Assembly (NCBI GenBank): GCA_020249925.1
Contig: JADCER010000012.1
Location: 248,001-312,000, forward strand
Origin: Roseomonas sp.
GTDB taxonomy: Bacteria > Pseudomonadota > Alphaproteobacteria > Acetobacterales > Acetobacteraceae
Direction: 5' to 3'
Length of the DNA stretch: 64,000 nt
Shown here: positions 22,057-64,000 of the stretch, in pieces
Numbering within the stretch: the stretch's first letter is position 1
Layout: every line of letters starts with the position of its first letter
The notes under the pieces: generated by a model
Database searches by the model: none
The model's input: only the letters and a program-made list of their open reading frames with translations
What the model was told of the DNA's origin: nothing
Program-made: the position numbers and the translations under genes

Positions 22057-23574
22057 ATGCAGGCCACCCCCCCGCTTCTTGCCGCTGAGGGCATTACCAA
22101 GCGCTTCGGCGCGCTGGTGGCCAATAACGCCGTGGACCTGAAGGTCGCACCCGGCGAGATCCATGCGCTGCTTGGTGAAAATGGCGCGGGCAAATCCACG
22201 CTCGTCAAAATCATCTATGGCCTGCTGCGCCCGGATGCGGGGCGGCTTGTCTGGCGCGATGCGCCTGTTGCCGTGGAAAGCCCCCGCGCCGCCCGCGCGC
22301 TTGGCATTGGCATGGTGTTTCAGCATTTCTCGCTTTTTGAGGCGCTGACGGTGGCGGAGAACGTCGCCCTCGCGCTTGATGGCGCTGGTGCCTTGAATGA
22401 GATCGCCGAACGCCTGGCCGAGACCAGCCGCGCCTATGGCCTGCCGCTTGATCCCAGCCGCGAAGTCTGGCGGCTTTCCGTGGGTGAGCGCCAGCGCGTT
22501 GAGATCATGCGCTGCCTGATGCAGGACCCTCGCCTGCTGATCCTGGATGAACCCACCTCCGTATTGACACCCCAGGAAGCTGAGGGGCTTTTTGCGACGC
22601 TTGCCAGGCTGCGCGCTGAGGGGCGTTCGGTCCTTTATATCTCCCACAAATTGGAAGAAGTGCGCCGCATTTGCGAAGCCGCGACCATTTTGCGCGGCGG
22701 CCAGGTGGTGGCGCATTGCGACCCGCGCGCGGAAACCGCAGCGAGCCTCGCGCGCATGATGATGGGCGGTGATGTGGTGCCCATCCGCCATGATGTGATT
22801 GAAGCGCAAGGTCCGGTGCGGTTGGCGGTTTCCGCGCTGTCACTCCCGCCGCAGCATGCGCATGGTATTGCGCTTGACAGGATCAGCCTGGAACTCCGCG
22901 CCGGTGAGGTGCTGGGCATCGCTGGGGTTGCCGGTAATGGCCAGGATGAGCTTTTTGCAGCCCTCAGCGGCGAAGAATTGGCGCCGCATGATGCGGCGAT
23001 TGCGATGGATGGTATCGCGGTGGGCCGCGTAGGCATCAATGAACGTCGCCGGCGCGGGGCTGCCTTTGTGCCGGAAGAACGGCTTGGCCATGGTGCGGCA
23101 CCTGCCATGCGGCTCACGGAAAACGCGCTGCTCTCAGGCCATGCCACCAATGGTTTTTTGCGCCATGGCTTGGTGGATCGCGCCAAGCTGACTGACTTTG
23201 TGGGCAAGGTGGTACGCGCCTTTGATGTGCGCAAAGGCCCTGCCGATCCGGAAGCGCGCGCGCTATCGGGCGGCAATTTGCAGAAATTCGTCATTGGCCG
23301 CGAAATTGCCCGCAAGCCCGGCCTGCTGGTGGTGGCGCAGCCAAGCTGGGGCGTGGATGCCGGGGCGGCTTCCACCATTCGTCAGGCGCTGATGGATCTG
23401 GCGCGTGCGGGCAGTGCTGTTCTGGTGATCAGTCAGGATTTGGATGAATTGCTGGAAATCTCAGACCGCCTTTGCGTGATGTTCATGGGCCGGCTCTCGC
23501 CCGCCGTGCCAACCGCGGAAGCCACACGGGAATCGCTCGGCCTATTGATGGGCGGGGCGGGGATGGCGGCGTGA
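22057..23574 (+). CDS. Nucleoside/BMP-type ABC transporter, duplicated ATPase
   Basis: 505-residue cytoplasmic ATPase with two ABC domains, as in YufO/BmpA-system and ribose RbsA-like proteins. First domain: Walker [10 protein letters not shown] (40-48), signature [11 protein letters not shown], Walker [10 protein letters not shown]. Second domain (from about 250): Walker A degenerate (GVAGNGQDE), signature [14 protein letters not shown] intact, Walker [13 protein letters not shown] without the catalytic Glu. The asymmetric pattern is normal for the family: only one ATP site hydrolyses. It drives uptake with the two permeases and the binding protein that follow. Its stop overlaps the next start by one base. 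Confidence 0.9.
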
Positions 23575-59681: not shown

Positions 59682-59777
59682 TCCGGGGGGCACGAAATTT
59701 TCTTGTGAAAGATCAATTCTGACCGGCCGGAATCGGCTATGTTGGGAAAAAGCGGCCCTTGCCGCCCGGAGTATCCG

Positions 59778-60626
59778 ATGCGGTTTTCTGCTCTTCTCGC
59801 CCTTGCGCTGATCCTGCCCGCAACCCCTGGCCTGACCCAGGGGGCGAAGGATGCGCCAGCCGCCGCCGCGCCGCTGGCGCCGCTCACGGCCCGTGCGCTG
59901 GCCTCCCATCGCGGGATTTACGACCTGACGCTCGATCGCGCGCGGGAGAATGCGACGATTGTCGATGTCTCTGGCGCCATGCTTTTTGAATTGATTGACG
60001 CCTGCGAAAGCTGGGCATCGCGCCAGCGCTTCACCATGACGATGCGCGACCGTGAAGGCACGGAGCTTGAAACAGGTTCTGACTACGCCACGCTGGAATC
60101 GATGGATGGCCGGACGCTGCGCTTCAGCCTGACCCAGGTGATGCAGGGCGCGGTGAGAAGCCGCGTCGCCGGTCAAGCCGAGCTTGGCGCGGATGGCAGC
60201 GGTGTGGCGCGCTATAGCGAACCGGAAGCGAAGGAATTGCCCATTCCGCCCGGCACGCTTTTGCCCAATACGCATACCATCGCTGCGCTCAATGCCGCGC
60301 GCGCCGACCAGCGCCTGCTGGTGGCGCCGATTTTCGATGGCACCTCAGCCGATGGCGCGCAGCAAACGACGACATTCTTGTCACCCTGGCAGGGGCCGCA
60401 GCCAGTGGCGAATTTGCCAAGCCTTTCTGCGCTTGGATCATCGCGCATGCGCATCGCGTTTTTTGAGCCCGATGCCGAACAGGCCGGCGGGGCGAGCACG
60501 CCTTCCTATGAAGTGTCGCTCCGCTATTTCGAAAATGGCGTGGCGGATGACATGATCATGGATTTCGGCGATTTCACCGTGCGCGCCAGGCTGGTCCGCT
60601 TGGAAGAAGCGCCCGGCGGCTGCTGA
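59778..60626 (+). CDS. EipB-like cell envelope protein (DUF1849)
   Basis: 282-residue periplasmic protein with signal peptide (1-22, RFSALLALALILPATPGLTQG). The mature part is beta-rich, beginning ALASHRGIYDLTLDRAREN. Cys76 (DACESW) and the penultimate-region Cys282 (GGC at the very end) match the disulfide pair known from Brucella EipB, which forms a beta-spiral and supports envelope integrity. Length fits the family. ATG 59778 follows the G-rich GCCGCCCGGAG; it lies about 96 bases after aspS. Its stop is 7 bases from the convergent binding-protein gene. Confidence 0.83.
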   Translation: MRFSALLALALILPATPGLTQGAKDAPAAAAPLAPLTARALASHRGIYDLTLDRARENATIVDVSGAMLFELIDACESWASRQRFTMTMRDREGTELETGSDYATLESMDGRTLRFSLTQVMQGAVRSRVAGQAELGADGSGVARYSEPEAKELPIPPGTLLPNTHTIAALNAARADQRLLVAPIFDGTSADGAQQTTTFLSPWQGPQPVANLPSLSALGSSRMRIAFFEPDAEQAGGASTPSYEVSLRYFENGVADDMIMDFGDFTVRARLVRLEEAPGGC

Positions 60627-60632
60627 GCCTCC

Positions 60633-62210
60633 CTAAACGCGCCGCAAATTCCACAAAAACGGGTTCGGCCCCTGCAAGACGCCTGTCAGGTCTCGCCGGA
60701 AGGCGGTGCGTAGCCGGAACAAGCCTGTCGGCGCGAAGGGCAGCGATTCCCAAGTGATTTCCTGCAAGCGGCGCATCGCTGCGTCTTGTGCCGCCTGATC
60801 ATCGGCGTTGATCCAGGCTTCCACCTGCGCTTCCGCTTCTGCATCTGTTGGCCAGCCAGGCCAGGCAGCTTGCCCATTCATGCGAATGGCGAAGCTGACG
60901 GCAGGATTGGCGATGGTTGCTGCCGGGCCATTGGTATTGTGCAAATGCCAGCCCCCTTGCGCCGGCGGGTTGCGGTTGTTGCGCCGCGCCAGAATGCTCG
61001 CCCAGTCTGATTCAATCGGCTGCATATTCACGCCCAATTTCCGCATCAGCTCCACCGTCAGGCGGCCCTGCTGCGTTACGGCAGGGAAATCGCTTGGGTT
61101 GATGTGGATGATGGGCTCGCCCGCGTAACCCGCTTCCCGCAAGGCCACGCGCGCGCGTTCCATGGCCGCTTCACCGCGTGCGGCGGGCGGAAACTCTACC
61201 ACGCCTGGCAGGCCGCAGGGGAACATGGCGTGGCATTCCTGCCAGTCACCTGGCAGTGCGACCGCCGACATGAAATCCGATTGCACGATCACATCACGAA
61301 TGGCGCGGCGCACCCGCACATCATTGAAGGGCGGGTGCAGATGGTTGAAGCGGAGAAAACCCAAAAACCCGTTCGGGTCATAAATCTGCGTCTGCGTATT
61401 GCGGTCCCGTTCCAGCACCGGCACCAGATCGGGCAAAGGGTATTCGATCCAGTCAATTTCCCCAGTGCGGAGTGCTGCTGCCGCGGTGCCGCCATCCGGG
61501 ATCCAGATCATCTCAAGCCGATCAAAATGCACGCGCTTGCCGCCGGAAGCGGCTTCCGCCGGTTCATCGCGCGGCACGTAAGCGTCATTGCGCGCATAAT
61601 GGCTGCGGGCACCTTGCACATATTCATTGGCAATGAAGCGCCAAGGCCCGCTGCCGATCATGTGTTCCAGGCCAAGCGATCGATCACCGGGATTGGCCGC
61701 AATCCGTTCCGGCATCATGAAACAGGGTGATGCGCCGGGCTTGGCCAAGGCATCGAACAGCGCGGGGAAGCGCCGATGCAGGCGGAATTCGATGGTGCGA
61801 TCATCGGCGGCGGAAAGCTCGGCCGTGGCGCGCATCAGGATTTGGCCGAAGCCATCGCGGCTCGCCCAGCGGCGAATGCTGGCCACGCAATCGGCGGCGC
61901 GTACGGCTTCGCCATCATGCCAGCGCAGCCCCTCACGCAGGCGGATTTTCACGCGCTTGCCGTCATCTTCCACGCTATGGCCTTCCGCCATTTGCGGGCG
62001 CGGCTGAAGCGCGCGATTGGCGCCATAGAGAGTATCAAACACGCAATAGGCATGCGTCGTGATGATGGTGCTGGGGCTGAAGATCGGGTCCAGATTGGCG
62101 AGTGCGGCCTGCGGCATGAAGCGCAGCGTGCGCGCGCGGCTAGGCTGCGCCAGGGCAGGCCGCGCCAAAGGTGCGGCCAAGGCGGTGGCGAGAAGTGAAC
62201 GACGATACAT
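60633..62210 (-). CDS. Peptide/opine-class ABC transporter binding protein under TPP control
   Basis: 525-residue periplasmic binding protein of SBP family 5 (DppA/OppA/NikA class). Signal peptide 1-22 (MYRRSLLATALAAPLARPALA), then LDPIFSPSTIITTHAYCVFDTLYG and the typical IGSGPWRFIANEYVQGA and LRFNHLHPPFNDVRVRRAI segments. No permease or ATPase gene is adjacent. A TPP riboswitch (62311-62402) lies directly upstream on the same strand, so ligand is probably thiamine, a thiamine precursor or a breakdown product (inference). ATG 62210 follows GAAGGAATTGGGG; a longer reading would translate through the riboswitch and is rejected. Confidence 0.87.
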   Translation of the reverse strand: MYRRSLLATALAAPLARPALAQPSRARTLRFMPQAALANLDPIFSPSTIITTHAYCVFDTLYGANRALQPRPQMAEGHSVEDDGKRVKIRLREGLRWHDGEAVRAADCVASIRRWASRDGFGQILMRATAELSAADDRTIEFRLHRRFPALFDALAKPGASPCFMMPERIAANPGDRSLGLEHMIGSGPWRFIANEYVQGARSHYARNDAYVPRDEPAEAASGGKRVHFDRLEMIWIPDGGTAAAALRTGEIDWIEYPLPDLVPVLERDRNTQTQIYDPNGFLGFLRFNHLHPPFNDVRVRRAIRDVIVQSDFMSAVALPGDWQECHAMFPCGLPGVVEFPPAARGEAAMERARVALREAGYAGEPIIHINPSDFPAVTQQGRLTVELMRKLGVNMQPIESDWASILARRNNRNPPAQGGWHLHNTNGPAATIANPAVSFAIRMNGQAAWPGWPTDAEAEAQVEAWINADDQAAQDAAMRRLQEITWESLPFAPTGLFRLRTAFRRDLTGVLQGPNPFLWNLRRV

Positions 62211-62310
62211 CCCCAATTCCTTCGCTTCCTGTCGGCTAACGCGGGGAAGGGGGCTTTGGCCTGGGCTGCGCCAGCCCCGGATAGGGGCAAAACGTAAGCG
62301 CGCAGGCGAT

Positions 62311-62402
62311 GCACCCTTCCCTACGCCGGTCCGAACCGGGTCAGGTTCCAGGGGTCGCGGGTGAAGCCCGCCTCTCAGCCCCAAAAGGGCTCCCCCAGGT
62401 GT
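62311..62402 (-). promoter_or_regulatory. TPP riboswitch (THI element)
   Basis: On the minus strand the aptamer runs from CACC (62401-62398) to GGTG (62315-62312), which close P1. The conserved cores are all present: GGGGGAGCCC, GGGGCTGAGA (CTGAGA at 62378-62373), ACCTGA (62346-62341) and GCGTAGGGAA (62326-62317), with a GCGGGCTTCACCCGC stem between. About 100 bases separate the aptamer from the start of the binding-protein gene; this gap contains GGGCTGGCGCAGCCC, a likely expression-platform hairpin, just before the ribosome site. No T-run follows it, so control of translation is more likely than termination. Confidence 0.93.
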
Positions 62403-62510
62403 CTCAGGCATTTAATTGCGCTCTCAGGCAGGCTTGCGCAAGCCCGGCGGTGGCGCGCGGGGCACGCTCGGGGGTAGAAGGGGCGTAACATTCGCCAAAG
62501 GGAAACGCCC

Positions 62511-64000
62511 ATGTCCAGCACCACCACCCTGCCGCCCGTCATTCGCCTGCATCCTGGTGATGGCGTGGTGATTGCGCGCATTCCACTCACGCCGGGTACG
62601 GAAGTCGCCCCTGGCATCAGCGTGGGTGAAAGGCGCATCCCGCCTGGTCATAAGGTCGCGATCCGCCCGCATGCGAAGGGCGAGCCCATCAAGCGCTACG
62701 GCCAGATCATCGGCTTTGCGACGGATGCGATTGAACCTGGCGCCTGGGTGCATACGCATAATTGCGAAATGGGCGATTTCGCGCGCGATTACGCCTGGGG
62801 CCAGGATGCCAAGCCCACCGATTATGTGGATGTGCCGGCAAGCTTCATGGGGCTACGCCGCGCCGATGGCCGTGTGGCGACACGCAATTACATCGGCATC
62901 ATCACATCGGTGAATTGTTCCGCCCATGTCGCTGAATTGATTGCACGCCAGTTCGAGAAAAACCCCATCACCGGCGATGATCCTTTGGCCGCCTGGGGTA
63001 ATGTGGATGGCGTGGTGGCGCTGACGCATAAAACCGGCTGCGGCATGACCATGGATGAACCGCTGCGGCTGCTGCGCCGCACCTTGGCGGGCTTCGCGCG
63101 CCATGCGAATTTTTCCCATGTGATTGCGATCGGCTTGGGCTGTGAAGTCAATCAGCTTGGCCCCATGCTGGAAGAACAGCGCCTCACCGGGCGGCTGCGC
63201 AGCATGGATATTCAGGATAGCGGCGCGCGCGCCACCGTGATGAAGGGCATTGATTTCGTGAAGGAGGTTTTGGCGGAATCCAATACCGCCAAGCGCGAAG
63301 CCGTCCCCGCATCAGAACTTTGCGTCGCACTGCAATGCGGTGGTTCGGATGGCTATTCCGGCATCACCGCCAATCCGGCACTTGGTGCGGCTTCCGATCT
63401 GCTCGTGCGCCATGGCGGCACCGTGATCCTGTCCGAAAGCCCTGAGACCTATGGCGCGGAGCATTTGCTGACGCGCCGCGCGGTTTCGCGTGAAGTGGGC
63501 CAAAAGCTCGTGGACGTCATGCATTGGTGGGAGGATTACACCACCCGCCAGGGTGCCGAGATGAATGCCAACCCATCGCCGGGCAATAAGGCGGGGGGGC
63601 TTACCACCATCCTCGAAAAATCACTCGGTGCCATGGCCAAGGCCGGCACCACCAATCTGGTGGAGGTCTATCGCTACGCCGAACCCGTCACCGCCAAGGG
63701 CTTTGTGTTCATGGACACGCCTGGCTATGACCCGGTGGGGGCTACAGGTCAGGTGGCGGGTGGCGCCAATCTGGTTTGCTTCACCACCGGGCGCGGCAGC
63801 GTCTTTGGCATGAAGCCCGCACCTTCCATCAAGCTTGCCACCAATACCACCATGTATGATCGCCTGTCGGAAGACATGGACATCAATTGCGGCACCATCC
63901 TGACAGGCGGCGAAAGCGTGCAGGAATGCGGCCAGCGCATTTTCGATCTGATGCTGCGCACCGCTTCCGGCGAGCCTACCAAAAGCGAAGCGCTTGGCTT
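62511..64000 (+). CDS. Altronate/galactarate dehydratase family (UxaA/GarD), 3' end missing
   Basis: 496 complete codons are in the window and the frame is open at the right edge. An N-terminal SAF domain (about 10-92; VIRLHPGDGVVIARIPL, then EIEPGAWVHTHN-like end at residues 82-90) is fused to the UxaA catalytic part, which starts GLRRADGRVATRNYIGI (near 114-130). Conserved features include THKTGCGM near 178, GLGCEVNQ, LQCGGSDGYSGITANPALGA near 275 and MDINCGTILTGGES. Members dehydrate hexonates or hexarates with Fe(II). ATG 62511 follows AAAGGGAAACGCCC. It is divergent from the riboswitch-controlled gene. Confidence 0.9.
   Translation, partial: MSSTTTLPPVIRLHPGDGVVIARIPLTPGTEVAPGISVGERRIPPGHKVAIRPHAKGEPIKRYGQIIGFATDAIEPGAWVHTHNCEMGDFARDYAWGQDAKPTDYVDVPASFMGLRRADGRVATRNYIGIITSVNCSAHVAELIARQFEKNPITGDDPLAAWGNVDGVVALTHKTGCGMTMDEPLRLLRRTLAGFARHANFSHVIAIGLGCEVNQLGPMLEEQRLTGRLRSMDIQDSGARATVMKGIDFVKEVLAESNTAKREAVPASELCVALQCGGSDGYSGITANPALGAASDLLVRHGGTVILSESPETYGAEHLLTRRAVSREVGQKLVDVMHWWEDYTTRQGAEMNANPSPGNKAGGLTTILEKSLGAMAKAGTTNLVEVYRYAEPVTAKGFVFMDTPGYDPVGATGQVAGGANLVCFTTGRGSVFGMKPAPSIKLATNTTMYDRLSEDMDINCGTILTGGESVQECGQRIFDLMLRTASGEPTKSEALG

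Follow-up and report, generated by a model that had tools for sequence, protein, structure and literature searches.

What is a riboswitch for TPP doing in front of a gene of the peptide-binding class of ABC receptors? The window, i.e., the whole stretch of 64,000 nucleotides analysed here, holds such an arrangement on its minus strand. The first-pass annotation had taken it as a sign of an unrecognised uptake system for thiamine, a precursor such as 4-amino-5-hydroxymethyl-2-methylpyrimidine (HMP), or thiamine breakdown products. We addressed this question by delimiting the locus, following the riboswitch and the gene across relatives, and comparing the result with the thiamine pathway genes and transporters of the hosts.

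The riboswitch and the gene behind it

When the whole window was searched with Rfam cmscan, a single match exceeded its cut-off: RF00059 (TPP), at 62406-62300 on the minus strand, with 70.3 bits against a gathering score of 54.3 (E 8.8e-12). The match covers model positions 1-105 of 105 and is untruncated, which bears out the riboswitch read earlier from the letters. Together with the conservation described below, this led us to reject the idea that it is an artefact or a chance match. The genome (G000; 3.94 Mb in 28 contigs, 99.6% complete) was scanned entirely, and at E<=0.001 this riboswitch remained the only TPP match. Directly downstream lies the gene of a 525-residue protein (P0001) of solute-binding protein (SBP) family 5, which matched PF00496 with 187.9 bits (cut-off 32.4) and no other Pfam family. 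Its likely start is ATG 62210, about 90 nt from the end of the aptamer, because a hydrophobic leader and the alignments of the orthologs begin there. A longer ORF of 592 aa opens at 62411, upstream of the riboswitch and spanning it; this start, from which the frame reads through the aptamer, is unlikely to be the real one. The first-pass annotation had also described the gene as standing alone, and the ORF list and Pfam agree: no permease or ATPase gene adjoins it. The features of the locus are as follows.

62300..62406, minus strand: TPP riboswitch aptamer (RF00059), full length by cmscan (70.3 bits); no other found in the genome
60633..62210, minus strand: family-5 solute-binding protein, 525 aa, with no operon partner seen (PF00496, 187.9 bits)
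62148..62210, minus strand: probable export signal, residues 1-21, MYRRSLLATALAAPLARPALA (from reading the translation)
62218..62230, minus strand: purine-rich ribosome-binding region preceding ATG 62210 (from the sequence; most ortholog leaders have a GGAGG/GGGGG-type motif there)
62243..62254, minus strand: pyrimidine tract, candidate switch that would pair with the 3' strand of the aptamer or with the ribosome-binding region (from the minimum-energy fold)
62511..64000, plus strand: altronate/galactarate-dehydratase-like gene, divergent, running off the window and outside the system (PF20629, PF04295, SAF)
59739..60626, plus strand: EipB-like gene, convergent and outside the system (PF08904)

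The class of the aptamer suggests that TPP represses the binding protein gene. In the minimum-energy fold of the leader, the 3' strand of the aptamer is paired with the pyrimidine tract (z = -0.95). Across 26 ortholog leaders, the duplex energies of the alternative pairings were mixed and not clearly better than those of shuffles, the ribosome-binding region being located with a crude pattern, which at L019 and L022, if not elsewhere, clearly picked the wrong site.

Conservation of the riboswitch-gene pair

To look for the pair, we scanned 84,980 species genomes; the short peptide patterns used for this detect close relatives only. This gave 53 loci: 41 with orthologs (72-98% identity), hosted by Neoroseomonas, Roseococcus, Rubritepida, Rhodovarius and many metagenome-assembled genomes (MAGs), and 12 with homologs of 38-46% identity. 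Two ortholog loci (L040, L054) have too little upstream DNA and were dropped. The TPP core pattern is present upstream of the gene in all 39 testable orthologs; 36 of them pass the Rfam gathering score and the other three (L023, 48.8 bits; L031, 48.8 bits; L028, 39.5 bits) match at E<=2e-4. No TPP riboswitch over the cut-off was found at any of the 12 distant homologs, nor at the four loci of own-genome paralogs L169-L172. Outside the family, the protein was sought with the peptide patterns and in plasmids, where the 12 records obtained at E<=1e-100 are all below 60% identity (best, 45.7%). Four of the ortholog loci (L011, L012, L039, L040) belong to MAGs titled Asaia bogorensis and encode copies 94-97% identical to the window protein, as Roseomonas-type lake MAGs do; the name may be wrong.

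Within the genus, a TPP riboswitch was found in 34 of 35 genomes, and its position upstream of a P0001 ortholog was verified in 33 (25 loci, the window, G104 and six further loci). The remaining two are G130, where the contig stops 184 nt downstream of the riboswitch, and G139 (85% complete), where no TPP riboswitch was found. In thirty of these genomes a single riboswitch was found and thiC was not, and in 29 of the thirty the riboswitch was verified to precede the P0001 ortholog.

The family gives a wider picture. A sample of 120 of its genomes holds 149 TPP sites, 92 upstream of thiC, 11 upstream of P0001 orthologs and 46 at other places. Fourteen genomes encode an ortholog, and 11 of these have the riboswitch 44-218 nt upstream; at the orthologs of G024, G112 and G088, none was found in the stretches searched, even at E<=1. 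The riboswitch-less ortholog of G088 (L234, G088:C1:67000-70000) also shows a frame change between residues 337 and 357, which may mean that the gene is decaying or that the assembly is wrong there. One of the 46 other sites, L138 at a contig end of G090, is a second copy of the riboswitch-gene pair. At the other 45, no relative of P0001 adjoins the riboswitch in up to 4.5 kb of downstream DNA (shortened by contig ends for L164 and L134); at L140, one P0001 paralog begins about 4.2 kb downstream of the TPP site. The pairing, which the first-pass annotation proposed to look for in related genomes, is found throughout the testable named orthologs and in almost all of the genus, and we regard the riboswitch and the conserved pairing as nearly certain to be real.

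A distinct clade within a generic family

The AlphaFold model of P0001 (mean pLDDT 89.7) has the family-5 fold. Among solved structures, Foldseek places 8vdx of Bordetella bronchiseptica closest (37% identity), followed by agropinic-acid, dipeptide, sialic-acid and nickel binding proteins, with DppA and OppA among the matches. Family 5 already binds non-peptides, so that the ligand cannot be read from the fold. We know of no ligand for 8vdx, and a literature search for this code returned only an unrelated paper. Against the curated families of NCBIfam, the protein scores 37.8 bits against the cut-off of 1005 bits of the DppA family (NF043070), falls far under the cut-offs for GsiB and NikA as well, and has no thiamine-binding-protein family among its matches.

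The orthologs have a signature of their own. In a comparison of 26 orthologs with 18 paralogs, 64 positions turned out to be conserved to at least 95% in the former and rare in the latter. Of these, six paralogs from the window's own genome hold just 4-7, the riboswitch-less orthologs of G024 and G112 keep 58 and 60, and for the three most divergent orthologs (60-64% identity) the figure is 39-43 out of 61-62. When 53 proteins were placed in a tree, the 35 orthologs among them grouped in a single clade with a support of 100/100. This fits a single gain of the riboswitch at the base of the ortholog clade and its loss in G024 and G112; G088 is a further riboswitch-less case outside this tree.

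Could the protein nonetheless be an ordinary binder of peptides or other solutes, whose control by TPP reflects general nutrition? The genome encodes at least nine paralogs (10 matches including P0001 itself at E<=1e-60; 12 of the 36 candidates were scored), and family-5 proteins without partner genes are frequent there. We consider this explanation improbable. Among the proteins compared, the riboswitch is confined to the P0001 clade; the pair is retained although the neighbouring genes change between genera; and in 29 of 35 genomes of the genus the sole TPP riboswitch detected was verified to precede this gene, while in G130, which would be the 30th, the contig end cuts the locus.

Loss of thiC and the rest of the pathway

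thiC was not found in 31 of the 35 genomes of the genus, G000 included. The four that have it (G104, G120, G127, G129; 4/28 of the good-quality genomes) each carry a second TPP riboswitch. In G000 and G044, where thiC was not found and the riboswitch of the P0001 ortholog is the only one found, thiG, thiE, thiD and thiL are all present, i.e., the thiazole synthase, the coupling enzyme and the kinases are kept. More broadly, thiD is present in 20/20 genomes tested (in G090 only below the cut-off) and thiL in 18/18. Judged by gene content, a pathway that lacks the synthesis of the pyrimidine and keeps the rest is the pattern of an organism that requires HMP. Among marine bacterioplankton, HMP auxotrophy through the absence of thiC has been described as the most frequent form of B1 auxotrophy, and SAR11 offers a parallel: its cells require HMP, and a putative TPP riboswitch precedes their transporter gene thiV (PMC11452348).

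We also asked whether the presence of the ortholog tracks the loss of thiC across the family, and it does not: 2 of the 14 genomes with an ortholog are thiC-less, against 28 of the 106 others. As 12 of the 14 have thiC, uptake there would be a supplement. There is no contrast within the genus either, because 33 of the 35 genomes hold the pair, including all four with thiC. The argument therefore rests on the pathway genes kept by the thiC-less genomes. The link to thiamine is strongly supported, because the pairing is conserved and thiC is absent where other pathway genes are retained, and a role of P0001 in thiamine metabolism is very likely. The earlier proposal is supported in its link to thiamine; of the three kinds of ligand that it left side by side, HMP or a related pyrimidine fits the evidence best.

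The same genes bear on the import of intact thiamine, TMP or TPP, after which a ThiK-like kinase and then ThiL would phosphorylate thiamine. Such substrates have precedents: ThiBPQ is listed as a transporter of B1, TMP and TDP (PMC10881298), and thiamin transporters are also found under TPP riboswitches (PMC3766115). ThiL, encoded in all 18 genomes tested for it, could use TMP. Yet the thiC-less G000 and G044 have retained thiG, thiE and thiD, which a cell importing whole thiamine could do without, and this makes the explanation unlikely in our view. The thiamine pyrophosphokinase PF04263 was found in 0/18 genomes, which counts against this route as well. Its absence is nevertheless compatible with thiamine salvage or a ThiK-like kinase, because the E. 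coli control was also negative; E. coli lives with ThiK and ThiL.

At L171:6421-9941 (on G000:C2), thiG lies about 1 kb from an orphan P0001 paralog and is convergent to it. This paralog is 45-47% identical to the binding protein and has no TPP riboswitch.

ThiY-type proteins are found in other genomes of the family

If P0001 serves pyrimidine uptake, how do its hosts compare with those of the known pyrimidine-precursor receptor ThiY? With a ThiY-type protein (L136; PF09084) as query, we searched 42 genomes, namely the 14 with a P0001 ortholog and the 28 other thiC-less ones. A match of at least 38% identity is present in 15 of these 28, in each case downstream of a TPP riboswitch, and in none of the 14, where the best matches reach 25-30%. 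The lone ThiY-like match in G000 at E<=1e-10 is 29% identical. From these sequence matches, the P0001-type protein seems to replace ThiY in the family, the exclusion covering the 42 searched genomes and thus, among thiC-bearing ones, those within the 14.

The distribution is also relevant to the exact form of the pyrimidine. P0001 may bind a degradation product (FAMP, AmMP) that TenA-like enzymes would convert to HMP, a sub-case that we count within the preferred explanation and hold to be rather unlikely as the specific answer. ThiY-type transporters are described as carriers of pyrimidine precursors, and FAMP and AmMP as salvageable degradation products (PMC10881298); no ThiY match of at least 38% was found in the 14 genomes with a P0001 ortholog. 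The present evidence, however, fits FAMP, AmMP and HMP alike.

The search for membrane parts

We called and clustered the genes of 35 loci and the window and found no partner gene that recurs in the operon of the binding protein; gene calling was rough in this analysis and most neighbours are unannotated. Queries for a permease and an ATPase were taken from the L173 set on G000:C22. At the 41 named ortholog loci, some with short flanks, relatives of the DppB-like permease amounted to one partial match of 37% at the edge of L035, and relatives of the dipeptide-type ATPase were not found. The ATPase query has one match in the window (28.5%, 22066-22710). L173 (G000:C22:412000-425000) itself encodes two tandem paralogous family-5 proteins, followed by DppB-type permease and oligo_HPY-type ATPase genes, and in Roseomonas, Pararoseomonas and Rubritepida there are loci of this type (L041-L043, L045-L048) whose DppB proteins are 86-88% identical. 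Among five own-genome paralog loci, only L173 holds relatives of the queries. We dropped the orphan status of P0001 as evidence in itself, because the paralog loci L169-L172 are also without permease or ATPase relatives. A shared dipeptide-type permease encoded elsewhere may plausibly serve P0001.

An orphan receptor might also be the sensor partner (e.g., of a chemoreceptor) for thiamine vitamers instead of part of an importer. The near-absence of relatives of the two queries (a DppB-like permease, a dipeptide-type ATPase) at the 41 ortholog loci agrees with this idea. We nevertheless judge it very improbable: the paralogs of the same genome are orphans too, a dipeptide-type permease and ATPases are encoded elsewhere in G000, and a thiC-less cell would be left without an identified uptake route, unless a known one such as ThiV or CytX serves it.

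A model for HMP uptake and its relation to known systems

Taken together, P0001 probably acts as the periplasmic receptor of an importer that takes up HMP or a closely related pyrimidine vitamer. When TPP is scarce, the leader would permit expression of the binding protein gene. The exported protein would capture the pyrimidine and pass it to a permease and ATPases of the dipeptide/oligopeptide type encoded elsewhere, the candidate set being that at about 419.1-423.0 kb of G000:C22. ThiD and ThiE would couple the imported pyrimidine to the home-made thiazole, ThiL would yield TPP, and TPP would shut the switch. A more detailed scenario, which we put forward tentatively, is that a family-5 protein was recruited once in a Roseomonas-like clade as a high-affinity HMP receptor under a TPP riboswitch, replacing ThiXYZ and sharing a dipeptide-type permease, and that most of the auxotroph genus depends on it.

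Such a system would resemble ThiXYZ in having a TPP riboswitch upstream and a periplasmic binding protein, and ThiXYZ occurs in thiC-less relatives of the same family. ThiY differs in being an NMT1/THI5-like protein (PF09084) with ThiX and ThiZ adjacent, whereas P0001 belongs to PF00496 and its operon has no permease or ATPase. ThiV of SAR11 (Pelagibacter) compares with it in the HMP auxotrophy of the host and in the putative TPP riboswitch ahead of the gene (PMC11452348), but it is a sodium:solute symporter and P0001 a binding protein. ThiBPQ has a periplasmic binding protein for a B1 compound, as we propose for P0001; the latter, however, matches no thiamine-binding-protein family of NCBIfam, and no ThiP- or ThiQ-like gene was recognised beside it. 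With DppA, GsiB, NikA, AgaA and 8vdx it shares the fold and the Pfam family, but it is far under the curated cut-offs for the first three.

The B1 transporters named in the accessible parts of PMC3766115, PMC11452348 and PMC10881298 do not include the family-5 class, and several transporters of pyrimidine vitamers are still putative (PMC10881298). We recognised no paper on a TPP-riboswitch-controlled family-5 binding protein in the open literature, most subscription papers and supplements being beyond its reach. If the proposal is true, P0001 represents a new class of B1-precursor receptor, and a generic member of family 5 acquires a function. It would also reveal an unrecognised route by which cells scavenge the missing half of vitamin B1 from outside.

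Other genes under TPP control in the family

To class the 46 other TPP sites of the family, we clustered their first forward ORFs, as far as such an ORF had been called; picking ORFs by codon position is rough in these GC-rich genomes, and seven proteins from five groups of loci were checked by Pfam/NCBIfam. By this clustering, the 45 sites other than L138 include 11 loci with an ATPase gene first and a ThiY-type gene, five with ThiY first, nine with TonB receptors and eight with thiO-like genes. Thirteen of the 46 fall outside the four multi-member clusters, e.g., L138 and the sites without a clear forward ORF.

In G045, a single contig of 98% completeness, thiC, a TPP riboswitch and ThiY were all not found. 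This genome has neither system, and therefore other solutions to the need for the pyrimidine exist. G002, G064 and G097 are likewise without a thiC, TPP riboswitch or ThiY-type protein that we could find.

The nine TPP riboswitches followed by TonB-receptor-like ORFs (L125, L127, L135, L137, L141, L143, L147, L158, L165) precede related proteins of 775-886 aa, of which that of L141 was checked by Pfam; a ThiY-type gene is also present at four of the nine loci. In G029, a genome of 1.9 Mb where thiC was not found, two PnuC-type genes lie side by side behind the TPP riboswitch of L149; their products (195 and 193 aa) both match PF04973.
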